NCBI RefSeq assembly: GCF_913053745.1
Contig: NZ_CAJXGF010000022.1
Coordinates: 1 to 39,143 of the forward strand
DNA from: an uncultured Nitratireductor sp.
GTDB taxonomy: Bacteria > Pseudomonadota > Alphaproteobacteria > Rhizobiales > Rhizobiaceae
DNA: 39,143 bases
Direction: 5' to 3'
Shown: positions 3,953 through 12,375 of the stretch, piece by piece
Layout of the letters: the number at the start of each line of letters is the position of its first letter
Numbering within the stretch: position 1 is the stretch's first letter
The notes under the pieces: generated by a model
What the model was told of the DNA's origin: nothing
The model's input: the letters and a program-made list of their open reading frames with translations, nothing else
Databases searched by the model: none
Made by a program: the position numbers and the translations under genes

Positions 3953-4807
3953 TTAACGGAACAGCATGACCGGAATCTTGCAGGATCGCAGCATGGCTTC
4001 GGTCGTCGAGCCGATGATGAGGCTGCGGATGCGCGAATGGCCGTAGGCCCCCATCACCAGAAGGTCGAACTTCTCGCTCTCGACACGCTCGGAAATGACC
4101 GTTTCGGGCTGGCCCGGCACGACTTCACCCTGTGCCTCGATACCGCCGCCACGCAGGACCGCCTCGGCATCGGCGAGGCGATTGCGCGCCTCGGAGTTGT
4201 CGGCCCCGACCGTGAGCAGCTTGACGGTGAGACCCGCAAAGAGCGGCGAACGGGACATGGCGTCGACCGCTTTCATGCTGCTGGCGCCGCCATCATAGGC
4301 GACCAGCACCTTTTCGATGGGCGTGAAGGCGCGGGCGGCAACGAAGACCGGCTTGTGGCTCGACCGCACGACGCGCTCCAGATTGGACCCCAGATGCAAT
4401 TTGGCGAAATCGGCTGCCTCGCCGCGCTTGCCGATCACCAGAAGATCGGAATCGACCTCCACCTCGGCGACCGTCTCGACCACGTCACCATGGCGCAGAC
4501 GGCCCGAGACCGCCTCGATGCCGGCGGTGCGCACCGCCGCTTCGGCATCTTCGAGGATCGCGCGGCCACGCTTCATGGCCAGGCGCGCGCGCCGCTCGTC
4601 GAGCTCGGAGAGTTCCTTCAGGAGCGAGGAGCGCGCACCGAGCGCGATCTTGCCCGACAGATCCGACGGAGCGCTGCCCGTCTCGCGGCGGCCGAGCACA
4701 TGGAGTAGTTCGACGGAAGATTCGAGCCTGCCGGCGATCCACGCCGCGTGCTCGCATACGCTTTGCGAATAGATGGAACCGTCGATGAATGCGGTAATCT
4801 TTGACAT
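3953..4807 (-). CDS. Universal stress protein, two tandem Usp domains
   Basis: A 284-residue cytosolic protein with two UspA folds in one chain. The first starts MSKITAFIDGSIYSQSVCEHA and the second about residue 150 (IEKVLVAYDGGASSMKAVDA). The second carries the nucleotide-binding signature GAYGHSRIRSLIIGSTTE near the C-terminus; the first has the weaker GKRGEAADFAKLHLGSNLE. Tandem Usp proteins bind ATP and help cells survive stress or growth arrest; no enzymatic role can be assigned. The ATG at 4807 follows GGAGGAAGG, so the longer upstream frame, which runs through a palindromic repeat, is not used. It sits upstream of the phosphofructokinase in the same direction, perhaps in one transcript. 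Confidence 0.88.
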   Translation of the reverse strand: MSKITAFIDGSIYSQSVCEHAAWIAGRLESSVELLHVLGRRETGSAPSDLSGKIALGARSSLLKELSELDERRARLAMKRGRAILEDAEAAVRTAGIEAVSGRLRHGDVVETVAEVEVDSDLLVIGKRGEAADFAKLHLGSNLERVVRSSHKPVFVAARAFTPIEKVLVAYDGGASSMKAVDAMSRSPLFAGLTVKLLTVGADNSEARNRLADAEAVLRGGGIEAQGEVVPGQPETVISERVESEKFDLLVMGAYGHSRIRSLIIGSTTEAMLRSCKIPVMLFR

Positions 4808-4820
4808 TGTCCCTTCCTCC

Positions 4821-4867
4821 AGCATCGGGCCGAAAAGCGGAATCCGGTTTTCGGTCATACCGATGCT
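4821..4867. repeat. Short dispersed palindrome in the usp 5' leader
   Basis: The terminal inverted repeat AGCATCGG / CCGATGCT is perfect over eight bases. An inner inverted pair (CCGAAAA / TTTTCGG) flanks CGGAATCCG. Units starting AGCATCGG and carrying CGGAATCCGGTTTTCGG are, from memory, abundant in Rhizobiales intergenic DNA. It ends just before the ribosome binding site of usp and would fold in the leader of that message. Confidence 0.65.
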
Positions 4868-4918: not shown

Positions 4919-6403
4919 CTAGTGGCCCATCAGCTTTTCGAGTGCACCCGGCTTGTCGTGAATGCCAAGCTTGTCGACGATGGTTTCGCTGGCCTCGTTC
5001 ATCCCGACGATCTCCACCTCGGCACCGTCGCGGCGGAATTTGAGCACGATCATGTCGAGCGCGCCAACACTGGAAATGTCCCAGATATGAGCACGGGAAA
5101 CGTCGATGACGACCTTGTCCAGCGCTTCCTTGAAATCGAAGGCGGCGTTGAAGTCCTCGACCGACGCGAAAAAGAGTTGGCCCTCGACGCGATAGGTGCG
5201 CTCACGCCCATCCGCAGACAGGGTCGATGTAACCCGGAAGATCTGCGCGATCTTGCCGGCGAAGAAGATGCCGGACAGCAGCACGCCAACCAGCACGCCG
5301 ATGGCGAGATTGTGCGTGGCGACAACGCAGACGACCGTGGCCAGCATGACCACGGAAGACGACAGCGGATGCTCGCGCAGACTCTTGATCGACGACCATG
5401 AGAATGTGCCGATGGAGACCATGATCATGATGGCGACAAGCGCGGGCATCGGGATCTGGCGCACCCAATCGCCGAGGATCACGATCATGAACAGTAGGAA
5501 CACGCCGGCCGCGAAGCAGGACAGGCGCCCGCGCCCGCCGGATTTCACATTGATCATCGACTGGCCGATCAGGGCGCAGCCCGCCATGCCGCCGATAAAG
5601 CCCGTGGCCGTGTTGGCGAGGCCCTGGCCGATGCACTCCTGGTTCTTGTCGCTCGACGTATCGGTGAGCTCATCCACCAGCGAGGCGGTCATCAGCGATT
5701 CCAGAAGGCCAACAGCCGCCACCGCCGCCGAATAAGGCAGAATGATCTGCAGCGTTTCCAGATTGAGCGGAATGTCGGGCAACAGGAAGACCGGGAAGGT
5801 CGACGGCAACTCGCCCATGTCACCCACCGTGCGCACGTCGAGTCCGAAGGCGATGGACACCGTGGTCAAAACGATAATGCAGACGAGCGGCGACGGCACG
5901 GACTTGGTCAGACGCGGGAACAGATAGATGATGGCGAGCCCGGCAGCGACCATCACATAGGTGAGGTTGGGCACGCCGATCAGTTCGGGCAGTTGTGCCA
6001 TGAAGATGAGAATGGCCAGCGCATTGACGAAGCCGGTCATGACCGACCGCGACACGAAGCGCATCAGATGGCCGAGCTTCAGGAGCCCGGCGCCGATCTG
6101 CAGGAGGCCTGCAAGCACCGTGGCGGCGAGCAGATATTGCAGGCCGTGCTCCTTGACGAGCGTGACCATAAGCACGGCGGTCGCGGCAGTGGCGGCCGAG
6201 ATCATGCCCGGGCGACCGCCGGCTATTGCGGTGATGACGGCGATGGAGAAGGAGGCGTAAAGCCCGACCTTGGGGTCGACACCGGCAATGATCGAGAAAG
6301 CGATGGCTTCGGGGATGAGCGCCAGAGCGACGACCAGCCCGGAAAGAAGATCGGCCCGGACATTGCCGAACCATTCGTCACGGTAATGGGAAAGCGAGAA
6401 CAT
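4919..6403 (-). CDS. SulP family inorganic anion transporter with STAS domain
   Basis: A 494-residue inner-membrane protein of the SulP/SLC26 family, which moves sulfate, bicarbonate or related anions. The N-terminus [41 protein letters not shown] is the family signature, followed by multiple membrane segments to about residue 390. A cytoplasmic STAS domain closes the protein ([27 protein letters not shown]). Start choice: [11 protein letters not shown] at 6403 has GAAGG four bases upstream. An ATG at 6421 is also in frame, with GGGAGG only two bases before it. Whether the substrate is sulfate or bicarbonate cannot be told from the sequence. A structured leader precedes it. Confidence 0.88.
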
Positions 6404-6575
6404 GGAACCTTCAGGAGACATGACCTCCCAACCGCCGACAGACACCTGCGGTCGGGAAAGACAGAAACGATCGAGGTTGCGCCGGCGGATCAGCGGCCGG
6501 CAGAGCCACCCGGAATTTCACCGGGTCCAAAGCGGATGCGCGGTGTTTAACCCTATTTCTTGCTGCGACGCAACA
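6404..6575 (-). promoter_or_regulatory. Structured mRNA leader of the SulP gene, candidate riboswitch-like element
   Basis: Read on the minus strand, the leader has three hairpins. The first is ACCCGG-TGAAATT-CCGGGT (6508-6526). The second is GCCGGC with a nine-base loop (6481-6501), followed at once by GCAACC. The third is CCGAC with an eleven-base loop (6435-6455), just before the start codons. GTTGCG at 6569-6574 can pair with CGCAAC at 6476-6481, closing the first two hairpins into a junction. The first loop and the GCAAC joint look like the L5 and J6/3 parts of cobalamin riboswitches, but the B12 box and arms P7-P12 are not evident. From memory, a 'sul1' RNA motif has been described upstream of sulfate transporters in Alphaproteobacteria. 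I cannot check the match. Confidence 0.5.
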
Positions 6576-6601
6576 TTCTTGATGCTGCGAAGGAACCTCC
6601 G

Positions 6602-8401
6602 TCAGTCCGGCTTCTTACGGGGTTTTTTCCTGCCGCCGGCGGGTTTGCCGAATTTCGGCTTGCCCGGTTTGCCGTCCTTCCTGGCCCGGGGCTTGGCGTC
6701 TTCGCGCCACTCGCCGCCCTTGCGATGCGGCTTGCCGGCGGGACGGCGCTTGCCGCCAAAGGGTTTGGGGCCGTTGCGCGGCGCAAACTCCGGCACACCG
6801 TCGAGCTGCACCACACGGATGCTGCGCTCCAGAACCGCCTGCGGACCGATGGCCGCAAGAAAACGGTCCACACTGGCCGCATCGAGCTGAACGAAGGTTT
6901 CGTCCTGCTGCATCTTGATCGCGCCGATCTCGCGCTTGGTGAGCTCGCCGGCGCGGCACAGAAGCGGGATGAGCCAGCGCGGCTCGGCATTCTGCTTGCG
7001 CCCGACGGACAGCGAGAACCAGACGCTTTCGTCGAAATCCTCGCGACGCGGTTTGCGCTCCTCGCGCATGCCGTCGGCATCGTGGACGGTGATTTCGGTC
7101 ACATCCTCGGGCGCGGAAAGCTTGCCGCGATGTAGGCGCACGAAAGCCGCCGCCACCTGCTCCGCACCGTGTTTGGCAAGCAGGGCCTCGACGAAATCGG
7201 TCTCGTTTTCCTGAATCGGTTCTTCGAGGTTCGGATCCGCCATGAGGCGCTCGTCGTCGCGGCGCAGAACGTCCTCGGCCGATGGCGGGCTGCCCCATTC
7301 GAGGCGCACCTTGGCGTCGCGCAGAAGGCGCTCGGCGCGGCGGCGGCCATTGGGCGCAACGATGAGCGCGCTGACGCCCTTTCGCCCCGCTCGGCCGGTG
7401 CGGCCGGAGCGGTGCAGAAGCGTTTCGGTGTTGGTGGGCAGGTCGGCATGCACCACAAGCTCCAGATTGGGCAGGTCGATGCCCCGGGCGGCAACATCCG
7501 TCGCCACGCAGACGCGGGCGCGCCCGTCGCGCATGGCCTGAAGCGCATGGGTGCGCTCGCTCTGGCTGAGTTCACCCGACAGGGCGACGACCGAGAAGCC
7601 GCGATTGTTGAACCGGGCCGTCATGTGGTTGACGGTGGCGCGCGTGTTGCAGAACACCAGCGCATTGCGCGCCTCATAGTAGCGCAGCACGTTGATGATG
7701 GCGTTTTCGCGCTCCTGGGGGATGGCGAGGAAGCCGCGATAGTCGATATCGCCATGCTGCTTCTGCTCGGCGGCGGTGGTGATGCGGACCGCATCACGCT
7801 GATAGTTCTTCGCCAGATTGGCGATGGTGCGCGAAACCGTTGCCGAGAACATGAGGGTGCGGCGCTCAGCCGGTGCCGCGTCGAGAATGAACTCCAGATC
7901 CTCGCGAAAACCGAGATCGAGCATCTCGTCGGCCTCGTCCAGCACCACGGCGCGCAGATCCGACATATCGAGCGCGTTGCGGCGGATGTGATCGCACAGG
8001 CGCCCGGGCGTGCCGACGACGATGTGCGCACCGCGCTCGAGTGCACGGCGCTCGGTGCGAATGTCCATGCCGCCGACGCAGGAAGCGATGACGGCACCGG
8101 TCTCGGCATAGAGCCATTCCAGCTCACGCTTGACCTGGAGCGCGAGTTCGCGCGTCGGCGCAACGGCAAGACCGAGCGGGGCGGCGGCACGGTCGAAGCG
8201 TTCCTCGCCATCAAGCAGGCTCGGCGCCAGCGCGATGCCGAAGGCGACGGTCTTGCCGGAGCCGGTCTGTGCCGAAACGAGCGCATCGGCGCCGGCGGGC
8301 TCCAACTCCAGCACAGCCTTCTGCACCTGGGTCAATTCGGTATAGCCGCGTTTGTCCAACGCCCGGCCAAGCGCCGGCACAATGCCTTCGAACTCGGTCA
8401 T
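6602..8401 (-). CDS. DEAD-box ATP-dependent RNA helicase
   Basis: A 599-residue helicase with all core motifs: Q motif region TELTQVQKAVL, Walker A AQTGSGKT (44-51), PTREL (82-86), TPGR (131-134), DEAD (155-158), SAT (186-188), and HRSGRTGRAGRKG in the second RecA domain. A DbpA-like RNA-binding domain follows (WLIPLLCRAGELTKREIGAIKM). The chain ends in a Lys/Arg/Gly-rich tail of about 55 residues that would bind RNA without sequence preference. Proteins of this layout (DeaD/CsdA/DbpA group) unwind structured RNA in ribosome assembly or mRNA decay. The ATG at 8401 follows AAAGAAGA. The 160-base leader carries a direct repeat. Confidence 0.92.
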   Translation of the reverse strand: MTEFEGIVPALGRALDKRGYTELTQVQKAVLELEPAGADALVSAQTGSGKTVAFGIALAPSLLDGEERFDRAAAPLGLAVAPTRELALQVKRELEWLYAETGAVIASCVGGMDIRTERRALERGAHIVVGTPGRLCDHIRRNALDMSDLRAVVLDEADEMLDLGFREDLEFILDAAPAERRTLMFSATVSRTIANLAKNYQRDAVRITTAAEQKQHGDIDYRGFLAIPQERENAIINVLRYYEARNALVFCNTRATVNHMTARFNNRGFSVVALSGELSQSERTHALQAMRDGRARVCVATDVAARGIDLPNLELVVHADLPTNTETLLHRSGRTGRAGRKGVSALIVAPNGRRRAERLLRDAKVRLEWGSPPSAEDVLRRDDERLMADPNLEEPIQENETDFVEALLAKHGAEQVAAAFVRLHRGKLSAPEDVTEITVHDADGMREERKPRREDFDESVWFSLSVGRKQNAEPRWLIPLLCRAGELTKREIGAIKMQQDETFVQLDAASVDRFLAAIGPQAVLERSIRVVQLDGVPEFAPRNGPKPFGGKRRPAGKPHRKGGEWREDAKPRARKDGKPGKPKFGKPAGGRKKPRKKPD

Positions 8402-8561: not shown

Positions 8562-9956
8562 TCAACCAGCCGCCGCCTCGCGCCGCTCGCGCGCCGTCAG
8601 ACGCATCATCACCATTCCCAGAAGCACGGTCAGGGCAGAGACGATCGACAGGGTGAGAAACGCGTTGAAATAACCCGCGGCGCCGCCGGCATGAGCCAGA
8701 AGCACGACGACCGCCACCGCTCCAACCGCGCCGCCAACACGCTGGACGATGTTGACCAGCGTTGTCGCGTCGCCCATCTCCTCCTTGCGGGCGGAGGCAT
8801 AAGCCGCCGTCATGGCCGGCATCTGCCCCAGCGCCATGCCAATGCCTCTGAGCACGAGAAGCGGCGCGAGCCACGCGGCAGGCAAAGGCGTGGGCAGGAG
8901 AAACGGCAGCGTGCTGACAAGAAGCGCGACCCCGCCGGCGAGCGTGACCCGGCCGGCGCCGAACCGATCCGTCAACGTGCCACCGACCGGAAGCGCGAGA
9001 GCGCTGCCGAGCCCCATGGCCAGGAGCAGGAAGCCGGTTTCCACCGTATCGCGGCCGGCGATCACCTGGAGATAGAGCGGAAGAAGCAAAAGCCCGCCAT
9101 ACATGTTTGCGCCGGTCAGACCGGTGGTGAGCGTGGCCGCGGTGAAGACGGGCCGACGAAGAAGCGCGAGGTCGATCAGCGGTGGCCGCGCGCGCATGGC
9201 ATTGACGGCGAACCTCGCGACGAGCAAAAGGCCGACGACGACGCAAACCAGATCGATGCGTGTCAGGCCCTGGGCACCGATCTCGGTCGCGCCATAGAGA
9301 AACAGTGGCAATCCCGCGCCAAGCAGAACCAAGCCCGCAAGATCGAGACGGCGCGTCTCGTCGCGTTCGCCGGGCGGAACCAGGCCTCTGGCAAAGAGAA
9401 GGGCAGCCACGCCGACAGGAACGTTGATCCAGAAAAGCCAGCGCCATGAGGCGTGATCGAGCAGCAGACCGCCAATGGCCGGACCAATGGCCGGGCCGAG
9501 CGCGACGACGAGCCCGAGCGCGCCCATGATACGGCCAAGCTGCTTGGGGCCGGCTGTCGCGCCGATGACGGCCTGTCCCGCCGGCACCATGAGACCGCCG
9601 GCCAGCCCCTGAAGAAAGCGGGCCGCGATCAGCGACCACGGACCGGGCGCGATGGCGCAGAGCACCGATGCCGCGGCAAAGCCGGCAAGGCTGAGCGCCC
9701 ACAGGCGGCCGTAACCGAAACGGTTTCCAAGCCAGGCCGCGGCCGGCAGCGAAATCGCCAATGCGATCAGATAGCCGGTGGCGATCCACTGGATTAGGGG
9801 CAGAGTTGTGGAGAAATCCTCGCGGATGGTCTCCAGCGCGAGATTGACGACGGTGGAATCCAGCATCGCCATGAACGCGCCAGCGCCGGTGACGGCGGCG
9901 ATCTTCCAGATCCGCGCGGGAATGGCCGGCGGCGGTGTTTGACGATCCGGGCTCAC
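8562..9956 (-). CDS. MFS exporter, DHA2 (EmrB/QacA-like) family
   Basis: A 464-residue inner-membrane protein predicted to have about fourteen membrane segments. LDSTVVNLALETI in the first segment is typical of the DHA2 drug:proton antiporters. GRLWALSLAGFAAASVLCAI and QGLAGGLMVPAGQAVI follow the family pattern, and GPAIGPAIGGLLLDHASWRWLFWINVP is the antiporter motif C with the usual tail. The start is a GTG with GAGGG about nine bases before it. It lies 65 bases after the glutaredoxin-type arsC on the same strand, so it may be read with the arsenic genes. Nothing in the protein points to arsenic as a substrate, and it is not obviously ArsJ or ArsK. Confidence 0.87.
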   Translation of the reverse strand: MSPDRQTPPPAIPARIWKIAAVTGAGAFMAMLDSTVVNLALETIREDFSTTLPLIQWIATGYLIALAISLPAAAWLGNRFGYGRLWALSLAGFAAASVLCAIAPGPWSLIAARFLQGLAGGLMVPAGQAVIGATAGPKQLGRIMGALGLVVALGPAIGPAIGGLLLDHASWRWLFWINVPVGVAALLFARGLVPPGERDETRRLDLAGLVLLGAGLPLFLYGATEIGAQGLTRIDLVCVVVGLLLVARFAVNAMRARPPLIDLALLRRPVFTAATLTTGLTGANMYGGLLLLPLYLQVIAGRDTVETGFLLLAMGLGSALALPVGGTLTDRFGAGRVTLAGGVALLVSTLPFLLPTPLPAAWLAPLLVLRGIGMALGQMPAMTAAYASARKEEMGDATTLVNIVQRVGGAVGAVAVVVLLAHAGGAAGYFNAFLTLSIVSALTVLLGMVMMRLTARERREAAAG

Positions 9957-10021: not shown

Positions 10022-10420
10022 CTACTTCACCACCTCGCCGTCTTCCTTCGTGAAGGCTTTCACCGCGTCTTCCGGCAGAAGTTCCAGCACAGTCTCGGAA
10101 GGGCGGCAGAGCTTCGTCCCAAGCGGGGTTTGGACGATGGGGCGGTTCATCAGGATCGGGTGCTCGACCATGAAGTCGATCAGTTCGTCGTCGCTCCATT
10201 TGTCTTCGCCAAGACCGAGTTCGTCATAGGGTGTGCCCTTCTGGCGCAGGATCGCGCGCGGCGACACACCCATGGCGGCAATCAGCGACACCAGGGTTTC
10301 ACGGCCGGGCGGCGTCTTGAGATATTCGATCACCTGCGGCTCCTCGCCGGCCTCCCGGAGCATGGCCAGCACGTTGCGCGAGGTGCCGCATTTTGGGTTG
10401 TGGTAGATGGTGGCGGTCAT
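10022..10420 (-). CDS. arsC: Arsenate reductase, glutaredoxin-dependent type
   Basis: A 132-residue ArsC/Spx-fold enzyme that reduces arsenate to arsenite using glutathione and glutaredoxin. The active site is HNPKC11GTSRNVLAML. The three arginines that bind arsenate in the plasmid R773 enzyme have counterparts at R59 (ILRQKGTPY), R93 (LMNRPIV) and R106 (LCRPSE). The ATG at 10420 lies 11 bases after the stop of acr3, so the two are cotranscribed. The frame stays open far upstream inside acr3, but family alignment fixes this start. It is the second arsenate reductase of the operon and is unrelated to the first in fold. Confidence 0.93.
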   Translation of the reverse strand: MTATIYHNPKCGTSRNVLAMLREAGEEPQVIEYLKTPPGRETLVSLIAAMGVSPRAILRQKGTPYDELGLGEDKWSDDELIDFMVEHPILMNRPIVQTPLGTKLCRPSETVLELLPEDAVKAFTKEDGEVVK

Positions 10421-10431
10421 TTGTCTCTCGT

Positions 10432-11511
10432 TCAGCTCTTGGGGAACCAGTCCCGGGTGCGGTTGGCGAAGGCGACCAGCGACAGCATCACCGGCACCTC
10501 GACCAGAACGCCGACCACCGTGGCAAGGGCGGCGCCGGAGTTCAAGCCGAACAGGCTGATGGCGACGGCCACCGCGAGTTCGAAGAAGTTCGACGTTCCG
10601 ATGAGGGCGCAGGGCGCGGCGACATTGAACGGCACCTTCCAGATACGGGCGGCGAAATAGGTCAGGAAGAAGATGCCGTAGGACTGGATCAGAAGCGGCA
10701 CGGCGATCAGCACGATCAGGATGGGCCTTGCGACGATGACATGGCCCTGGAATCCGAAGAGCAGCACGACCGTGACCAGTAGGCCGATTACGGAGACAGG
10801 TTTCAGCGACGCGGTGAAGTCCGAGACCGCCTTTTCGGCCTCGGCGCCGGAGGCGCGGCCGGTGAGCCATTTTCGGGTCAAGGCGCCGGCAACGAGCGGA
10901 ATGACCACGTAAAGTCCGGTCGCCAGAAGAAGCGTTTCCCACGGCACGGCGATGTCGGTGACGCCGAGCAGCAGGGCAACGATGGGCGCGAAGGCGAAGA
11001 TCATCACCACATCGTTGAGCGAGACCTGCACGAGCGTGTAGGTGGCGTCACCCCGGGTAAGCTGGCTCCACACGAAAACCATGGCCGTGCACGGCGCGGC
11101 ACCGAGCAGGATCAGGCCGGCAATGTATTGCTGCGCATCGGCGGGCGCGATCCACGGGGCGAAGACATATTCGAAAAACAGAACGCCGAGGGCTGCCATG
11201 GTGAAGGGCTTGACGAACCAGTTGACGGCAAGCGTCAGCACGAGGCCCTTGGGCCGGTCGCCGATATGGCTGAGGCTGGCAAAGTCGACATTGACCATCA
11301 TCGGGAAAACCATGGCCCAGATGAGAACGGCGACGACCAGATTGACCGAGGCGTATTCGAGCGAGGCGAGAAAGCCGAACAGGCCCGGCATCAGATTGCC
11401 GAGGGCAATGCCGGCGACGATGCAAAGCGCCACCCATATGGAGAGGTATTTTTCGAAGAAGCCGATGCCGCCCGCCGGGGCGTCGGATCGGTGCAGAATA
11501 TGCTCGGTCAT
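10432..11511 (-). CDS. acr3: Arsenite efflux permease, ACR3 family
   Basis: A 359-residue membrane protein of the ACR3 (BASS superfamily) arsenite carriers, with about ten membrane segments. [21 protein letters not shown] opens the first segment. [19 protein letters not shown] carries the conserved cysteine needed for transport in characterised members, and [15 protein letters not shown] follows. It exports trihydroxyarsenite made by the neighbouring reductases, driven by the proton gradient. The ATG at 11511 has GGAA seven bases upstream; a TTG one codon earlier is less likely. Only ten bases separate it from the upstream arsC. Often labelled arsB, although it is unrelated to the ArsB family. 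Confidence 0.94.
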
Positions 11512-11521
11512 CAAACGGTTC

Positions 11522-12031
11522 CTATTGGGAATGCGCCGGCGTGCGGCCGATATTGTCGAGACGCCGCTGAAGGGAAAGCCGGTCGAGCGAAGCGAACGGC
11601 AGCGCCGTGAAAATGGAAATGCGGTTGTTGAGCATGCGGTATGTGTCTGCGAAAGCGAGGTGTTTTTCGGCCTCGGTACCGGAGACCGCAGCCGGGTCGG
11701 GCAGGCCCCAATGGGCCGTCATCGGCTGACCGGGCCAAACGGGGCAAGCTTCCTGAGCCGCGCTGTCGCATAACGTGAAGACGAAATCCAGCTTCGGCGC
11801 TTCGGGCGTCGCGAACTCGGCCCAATCCTTCGAGCGCGCGAAAGCGACATCGTGATTCATGTGTTCGAGCAGTTCCACCGCGTAAGGGTGCACCGCACCC
11901 CTGGGCCGGGAGCCTGCCGAATAGGCCATGAAGCGGCCCGCGCCGACGCGGTTCAGGATCGCTTCGGCAAGGATGGAGCGGGCCGAATTGCCGGTGCACA
12001 GGAAAAGCGCATTGAAAGGCCGATCGCGCAT
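11522..12031 (-). CDS. arsC: Arsenate reductase, low-MW phosphatase type
   Basis: A 169-residue enzyme with the fold of low-molecular-weight tyrosine phosphatases. The phosphate loop LC12TGNSAR18S binds arsenate and C12 is the nucleophile. C88 and C96 ([18 protein letters not shown]) can form the disulfide relay of thioredoxin- or glutaredoxin-linked ArsC enzymes, and LPDPAA supplies the general acid. The ATG at 12031 follows GGAGG, and it starts 11 bases after the arsR stop. A C-terminal tail of about 25 residues ([17 protein letters not shown]) extends beyond the usual core. It provides a second route to arsenite, alongside the glutaredoxin-type enzyme at the operon's other end. Confidence 0.92.
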
Positions 12032-12042
12032 GGTCTTGCCTC

Positions 12043-12375
12043 CTAGCAATGACAAGTGGCCGCCTCGATGGCGGGGCGGCAAAGGTCGGGATTTCCGTTG
12101 CAGCAGTCCTCCATCAAGAAGGAAAGGAGATCGCGGAAACCGGTCATGTCCGCGTGGTAGCGAATGACGCGCCCTTGCCTCTCCGCTCGGATCATGCCCG
12201 ATTGCGTCAGCACTTTGAGGTGGGCGGATGCGGTGTTCTGCACCACATCCAGCCTCGCCGCGACCTCACCGGCCGGCAAACCGCCCGGCCCGGCCTTCAC
12301 CAGAAGGCGAAACACGTCGAGCCGGGTTTCCTGCCCGAGAGCGGAAAGCGCTTCGATGGCTTCGGGTTTTCTCAT
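12043..12375 (-). CDS. arsR: ArsR family arsenite-responsive repressor
   Basis: A 110-residue winged-helix repressor. The DNA-reading helix region is AARLDVVQNTASAHLKVLTQSGMI and the wing RAERQGRVIRYHAD. Instead of the E. coli CVC site in the DNA-binding helix, cysteines cluster at the C-terminus: C91, C92, C99, C108 and C110. A C-terminal CC-x6-C site resembles the Acidithiobacillus ferrooxidans type of ArsR, which evolved its arsenite site separately. When arsenite binds, the repressor should leave the operator and free the operon. It is first in arsR-arsC-acr3-arsC. A likely operator lies just upstream. Confidence 0.93.
   Translation of the reverse strand: MRKPEAIEALSALGQETRLDVFRLLVKAGPGGLPAGEVAARLDVVQNTASAHLKVLTQSGMIRAERQGRVIRYHADMTGFRDLLSFLMEDCCNGNPDLCRPAIEAATCHC

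Follow-up and report, generated by a model that had tools for sequence, protein, structure and literature searches.

The window analysed here, the whole of a 39,143-nucleotide stretch of DNA from an uncultured Nitratireductor sp., carries on its minus strand a gene for a SulP/SLC26 transporter, followed by a gene for a universal stress protein homologue, an arrangement also found at 65 of the 132 loci with enough sequence (Table 1). In the leader of the transporter gene, a preliminary description had picked out on the minus strand the hairpins ACCCGG-TGAAATT-CCGGGT (6526-6508) and GCCGGC/GCCGGC (6501-6481), and had pointed to a motif named 'sul1' in the upstream regions of SulP genes. Both hairpins are present as described and are the P1 and P2 of sul1, so that this pointer was correct: when the whole window was compared with 4227 Rfam families using cmscan, the sole above-threshold match was sul1 (RF03058), which scored 70.1 bits (gathering score 36.2) and covered the model over its full length. 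A permissive scan of positions 6380-6620 up to E=5 returned this match alone, and the genome contains one copy.

Table 1. Features of the transporter leader and the adjoining genes (window coordinates).
Feature	Coordinates	Strand	Basis
Putative -35 box TTGCGT, overlapping the GTTGCG arm	6568..6573	-	Family T enrichment at -43/-42
Putative -10 box TTAAAC, 17 nt after the -35 box	6545..6550	-	Family -10-like peak; matching columns of the genus alignment
sul1 RNA (RF03058) core	6476..6531	-	cmscan 70.1 bits, model positions 1-56 of 56
P1 hairpin ACCCGG-UGAAAUU-CCGGGU	6508..6526	-	98.8% of cells paired, two-sided changes in 4/6 pairs (42 relatives)
Joint GGCUCU, GGCU nearly invariant	6502..6507	-	192 tabulated distinct cores
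P2 hairpin GCCGGC / loop CGCUGAUCC / GCCGGC	6481..6501	-	94.4% of cells paired, two-sided changes in 4/6 pairs
Third stem CCCGACCGC/GCGGUUGGG (P3/P4 position)	6427..6456	-	Family P3 covariation; by eye, one pair A-U to G-C within the genus
SulP/SLC26 transporter gene, start ATG 6403-6401	4919..6403	-	Pfam Sulfate_transp and STAS; start placed by homology
Universal stress protein gene after SulP	3953..4858	-	Pfam Usp

It is virtually certain that the element is a member of sul1. Besides the score, the window has the 5' GG, the UGGCU joint, both hairpins and the P2 loop CGCUGAUCC, and it shares with RF03058 the placement before a SulP gene, the ATG at 6403 of a protein with the Pfam Sulfate_transp domain lying 72 nt past the element. 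A small difference concerns the outer P2 pair, which is G-C followed by GCAAC in the window and u/a followed by caac in the Rfam consensus. The suggestion that the leader might represent a new class is not supported, because the class is already in Rfam; the element is instead a well-supported addition to a known orphan class. The original report of sul1 is said to be that of Weinberg et al. in 2017. Rfam types the family as a riboswitch, a label that is not itself proof. In the accessible parts of the literature, sul1 RNA is named in tables of PMC7371854 and PMC9943018, while PMC10636060 puts it under RF01070 as part of a citric-acid-cycle gene, apparently through a mix-up of families. No ligand for sul1 is named in these parts of the three papers, nor did searching of the literature, to the same partial depth, yield one, and a word search for 'sul1' in a review of former orphan riboswitches (PMC7266159) gave no hit.

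The core of the element is well conserved and its hairpins are supported by covariation. Across 192 tabulated distinct cores the 5' GG, the GGCU of the joint and most positions of the conserved P2 loop CGCYNAUCC vary little or not at all. When aligned leaders were tested for covariation, P1 and P2 were found to covary among relatives: in a set of 42 diverse relatives (from 45 selected cores, L141, L145 and L262 being excluded for their long P1), standard pairing is seen in 96.6% of cells, two-sided changes affect 8 of the 12 pairs, and the covariation score is 0.359 as against 0.145 in shuffled alignments, with 0 of 500 shuffles reaching either the score or the pairing percentage. Sliding the alignment reduced pairing to 28-57%. 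The outermost P2 pair is unpaired in 14 of the 42. The arms of P1 also covary in a permutation test with non-overlapping arms (0/1000). Folding energy, by comparison, was discarded as evidence for the element, since it is unremarkable both for 6386-6533 (z -0.73) and for 6404-6575 (z +0.62). The P1 loop is variable, with 100 distinct loops in 193 cores, and the P1 hairpin mostly spans 15-21 nt, the extremes of 12 and 34 nt being perhaps parsing errors. Part of this variation is ordered. Cores with a C-G innermost P2 pair have a UGNRANN P1 loop in 109 of 143 cases, as against 1 of 50 where the innermost pair is G-C, and 37 of these 50 have short P1 loops, counts that carry no correction for relatedness. 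On this comparison of sequences, sul1 cores fall into two structural subtypes, distinguished by the innermost P2 pair and the P1 loop.

These counts bear directly on the likeness to cobalamin riboswitches that had been seen in the first loop and in the GCAAC string. A conserved L5 loop and the GCAAC of J6/3 are features of cobalamin riboswitches, and the window does share a UGAAA-type loop (UGAAAUU) and a GCAAC string with them. It could accordingly be imagined that the leader is a degenerate cobalamin riboswitch that retained its L5 and J6/3 pieces and lost its outer arms, a reading to which the UGNRANN loops of 110 of the 193 cores would lend some colour. However, the Cobalamin covariance model (RF00174) gave no match in 6380-6620 up to E=5, and neither piece is conserved throughout sul1: 97 of 193 distinct cores have a P1 loop that begins with UGNAA, 4 of 232 relatives have GCAAC in the 8 nt that follow P2, the subtype with the G-C innermost pair all but lacks the loop, and the P1 span itself varies. 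We therefore reject a relation to cobalamin riboswitches, which has next to no probability; the likeness is one of small motifs, not of families, and is superficial. The UGNRANN loop, which we take to resemble a T-loop, may explain why L5 came to mind. Seven cobalamin riboswitches are found elsewhere in the genome of the window, among them two divergent copies lying back to back on contig C2 (8687-8888 on the minus and 8950-9148 on the plus strand).

The 56-position Rfam model lacks a third stem that is seen in the window and its relatives. A third hairpin had been described just before the transporter start; it is present, as CCCGACCGC/GCGGTTGGG at 6456-6448 / 6435-6427 on the minus strand, and it occupies the location of a covarying family-wide stem, P3. 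In the relatives, the segment directly after P2 pairs with the segment preceding the start codon, the 3' arm occupying roughly -30 to -12 relative to the SulP start. Near -24 the pairing probability is 0.49 in 169 leaders (thinned from 190), as against 0.18 in chimeras that join the 5' part of each leader to the 3' part of another, and pairing summed from -45 to -6 exceeds that of a leader's own chimeras in 80% of leaders (Wilcoxon p 3e-17, with kinship ignored). Own arms pair at a mean of -12.7 kcal/mol and permuted arms at -9.5 kcal/mol, a difference reached in 0 of 2000 permutations of 110 leaders less than 45% alike and again in 0 of 2000 at a likeness limit of 50% (141 leaders); the control on coding regions gave no signal (492/2000 and 843/2000). 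An earlier test on 196 leaders (thinned from 209) had given a mean z of -0.71, as against +0.09 and -0.01 in controls. All these P3 tests cover leaders whose start distance lies within fixed limits.

When 176 pairs of blocks were scanned in the 90 leaders that head the thinned list, comparisons between neighbouring same-frame blocks (including the arms of P1) being excluded, the strongest signals by a clear margin came from P2 (z -14), P3 (reaching -9.2) and P4, an apical stem (reaching -6.0); the next unrelated pair stood at z -2.3. Because some blocks could overlap, P3 and P4 were retested with non-overlapping arms. P3 holds (z -14.6, 0/1000 permutations, 137 leaders). The support for P4 weakened once overlap was removed: its first scores, z -6.0 and -4.7, came from blocks that could overlap in short leaders, and without overlap it scores z -3.9 (0/1000, 119 leaders), or z -2.5 (10/1000) in the 51 long leaders. 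Judged from these covariation tests, the third stem is real as a feature of the family. The 3' arm of the third stem in the window, at -32 to -24 from the ATG, lies inside the family-wide peak of P3 3' arms, and in the genus one of the pairs has, by eye, changed from A-U to G-C. Compared with the usual P3, the window's stem is a hairpin of shorter range, and its own long-range P3 arms are not singled out by the permutation test, ranking at 0.231 among swapped partners.

The preliminary description had also closed the whole element with an outer stem formed by GTTGCG (6574-6569) and CGCAAC (6481-6476). This stem we reject. The counterpart segments of 137 thinned leaders show no covariation, pairing at -4.21 kcal/mol as against -4.28 when permuted (684 of 1000 permutations being as good), and in the genus TTGC is kept in 10 of 10 genomes and GCAAC in 7 of 10, with no compensation by eye. 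Furthermore, GTTGCG overlaps a -35-like box. Counted back from the sul1 GG, 201 upstream regions favour T at -43 and -42 (0.55 and 0.57), followed by G or T, and have their maximum of TA-rich, -10-like words between -22 and -19. This layout resembles that of a sigma-70-type promoter which starts transcription some 8 nt ahead of the GG, from which we infer a transcript start near 6536-6538 in the window. The fit of the window itself is imperfect, its TTG lying at -45 to -43 and thus displaced by 2 nt from the family mode, and no promoter reached the threshold used in a consensus scan of its leader. The GTTGCG arm is nevertheless more likely to belong to a promoter than to an RNA stem. Together with P3, the promoter layout supplies a testable boundary for the RNA, from a likely start some 8 nt ahead of the GG to the end of P3 roughly 12 nt short of the start codon, which a 56-nt construct would not cover.

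The association of sul1 with SulP genes is strong. Our surveys found sul1 in 70 of 151 genomes of the family, in 51 of 297 of the order (including the window's own and one counted in the family survey) and in 11 of 385 of the class (9 above the cut-off, the window's own included); in the genus of the window all 10 genomes have it. At 127 of the 135 places found in the three surveys the next gene on the same strand is a SulP gene. Of the other eight, two are matches below the cut-off that appear spurious (L143 and L144), one lies at a contig end (L063), one precedes what is by eye a broken-off SulP start (L101) and four precede other genes. At L101 the apparent SulP N-terminus breaks into another frame, and the same genome has a second sul1 with a SulP gene. 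A pattern scan gave, among the matches listed, 96 sul1-like elements out of at least 118 loci, 91 accepted for a P1 of at least 6 bp and five (L188, L220, L237, L262 and L264) by eye despite a weaker P1; among these listed matches SulP follows at 90 of the 96, four leave the available stretch and two precede other genes. Four places with SulP, confirmed with RF03058, lie outside the Alphaproteobacteria, three of them in Betaproteobacteria (L162, L171 and L184, in records of Alcaligenaceae, Achromobacter and Eoetvoesiella) and one in a gammaproteobacterium (L216, Rhodanobacter). Within the family, all 70 genomes with sul1 carry the transporter, and 70 of the 75 genomes with a SulP of at least 56% identity have sul1; the other five (L313-L317) encode a SulP of 80-82% identity with no sul1 match, or no intact sul1, before it. 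Upstream of one of these (L314) there seems, by eye, to be a decayed sul1 remnant. The distance from sul1 to the start codon is mostly 60-80 nt in 220 leaders (range 23-230) and about 70 nt in most relatives with a mapped start, close to the 72 nt of the window. It is very likely that the element acts in cis-regulation.

What the transporter carries is less obvious than its family name implies. The closest solved structure is 5da0, which aligns along almost the entire length with E 1e-185; 6ki1 reaches 1e-35 and a plant sulfate transporter 3e-25. In NCBIfam, the protein stays below the cut-offs set for sulfate permease, DauA and BicA. In the parts of the sources available to us, 5DA0 is SLC26Dg, for which transport of fumarate in liposomes is reported (PMC6497670) and which is called an H+-coupled fumarate transporter (PMC8298490). 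With such a nearest relative the 'sulfate' label may mislead, and the link to sulfate is doubtful. The idea that the transporter marked by sul1 replaces the sulfate ABC importer was rejected, since the association is positive: CysT is found above its cut-off in 48 of 70 genomes with sul1 and in 30 of 81 without (Fisher p 1.6e-4, kinship ignored). The genome of the window and two others of its genus (G000, G040 and G136) have no CysT above the curated cut-off, which could give SulP a greater weight in sulfate supply in these genomes.

Six copies of sul1, scoring 60.8-79.2 bits, stand before genes other than SulP. At L128 the gene has no Pfam match and is followed by an MBOAT gene, and L126 has, by eye, a similar-looking gene; the others precede a Sulfotransfer_3 protein (L129, 43 bits), an Acyl_transf_3 protein (L131), a hexapeptide transferase (L173) and a C-methyltransferase (L199). 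Two of the genomes concerned, G683 and that of L199, have sul1 and lack a close SulP, with homologues at 23-38% identity. The start codons of five of the copies lie 140-336 nt away as called, the sixth (L126) being uncertain, and at such distances the copies may be leftovers beside unrelated genes; conversely, the cores are intact, which speaks for continued function of at least some of them. These contexts offer extra clues to the ligand. They could be read, with the SulP annotation, as pointing to a riboswitch for sulfate or PAPS that links sulfate uptake to the sulfation of surface polysaccharides, given the sulfotransferase at L129 and the transferase genes of surface-polysaccharide-cluster kind after other copies. 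We consider this unlikely. A sulfotransferase follows at one of the six places, and with starts farther off than the usual ~70 nt the link may be incidental; the transporter is by far closest to SLC26Dg; and CysT is not complementary to sul1.

Turning to the level of control, the region 6380-6640 has no terminator-like site, and with the start codon nearby translation is the likely level. Shine-Dalgarno (SD) sequences are weak, with a median of -3.0 kcal/mol, and 38 of 169 leaders yielded none; direct sequestration of the SD by P3 was rejected because the SD-like hexamer is no more paired in real leaders (0.63) than in chimeras (0.66). P3 seems instead to act just upstream of the SD. The block-pair scan of 90 leaders found no helix competing with P3, and a kissing pair between UCC of the P2 loop and a GGA before the start was rejected by eye, since some leaders whose loops lack UCC keep a GGA partner. 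Translational riboswitches of Alphaproteobacteria such as SAM-II and SAM/SAH likewise have a small core near the start codon and no terminator. They differ from sul1 in that the covarying stem of sul1 does not sequester the SD itself, and neither has an Rfam match at the locus.

It is conceivable that sul1 is the binding site of a regulatory protein or small RNA that reads the loop and joint and thereby blocks or helps SulP translation. The small core of two 6-bp hairpins, the weak SDs and the rather fixed start distance would suit such a site. A conserved joint and a 9-nt loop are, however, typical of compact aptamers, and copies before unrelated genes, if functional, favour a shared ligand over autoregulation of SulP; the riboswitch typing in Rfam points the same way, for what a label is worth. 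A protein or small RNA site is thus possible, if improbable. We favour a ligand-binding riboswitch, which we hold to be reasonably likely, and the balance tips, a little less firmly, towards an orphan riboswitch candidate that sits close to the 5' end of the transporter mRNA and works on translation. For control of translation specifically through P3 the odds appear even. According to this riboswitch model, a small molecule would bind the conserved single-stranded parts (the 5' GG, UGGCU and the P2 loop CGCYNAUCC) and make P3, with its 3' arm stopping some 12 nt short of the start codon, more or less stable; ribosome loading would change with it, and synthesis of the transporter would track the level of the ligand. 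The favoured ligand would be an anion carried by an SLC26Dg-like transporter, or a metabolite made from that anion. In its fullest form, a translational switch of some 125-135 nt (P1-P3 to the start codon) in two subtypes, with a non-sulfate anion such as a C4-dicarboxylate as its ligand and a sensor reused in a few lineages for surface-polysaccharide genes, the proposal is speculative and unlikely to hold in every part.

Beyond the Rfam model, the comparison adds the third stem, the promoter layout, the two subtypes, places outside the Alphaproteobacteria and a doubtful link to sulfate. The RNA boundary, a transporter subfamily with a fumarate carrier as its nearest solved relative and the contexts other than SulP make the question of the ligand directly approachable. 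Elsewhere in the window, the open reading frames at 10022-12082 resemble, by eye, an arsenic-resistance-type cluster, presumably encoding an ACR3-like permease together with ArsC-like and low-molecular-weight phosphatase-like reductases.
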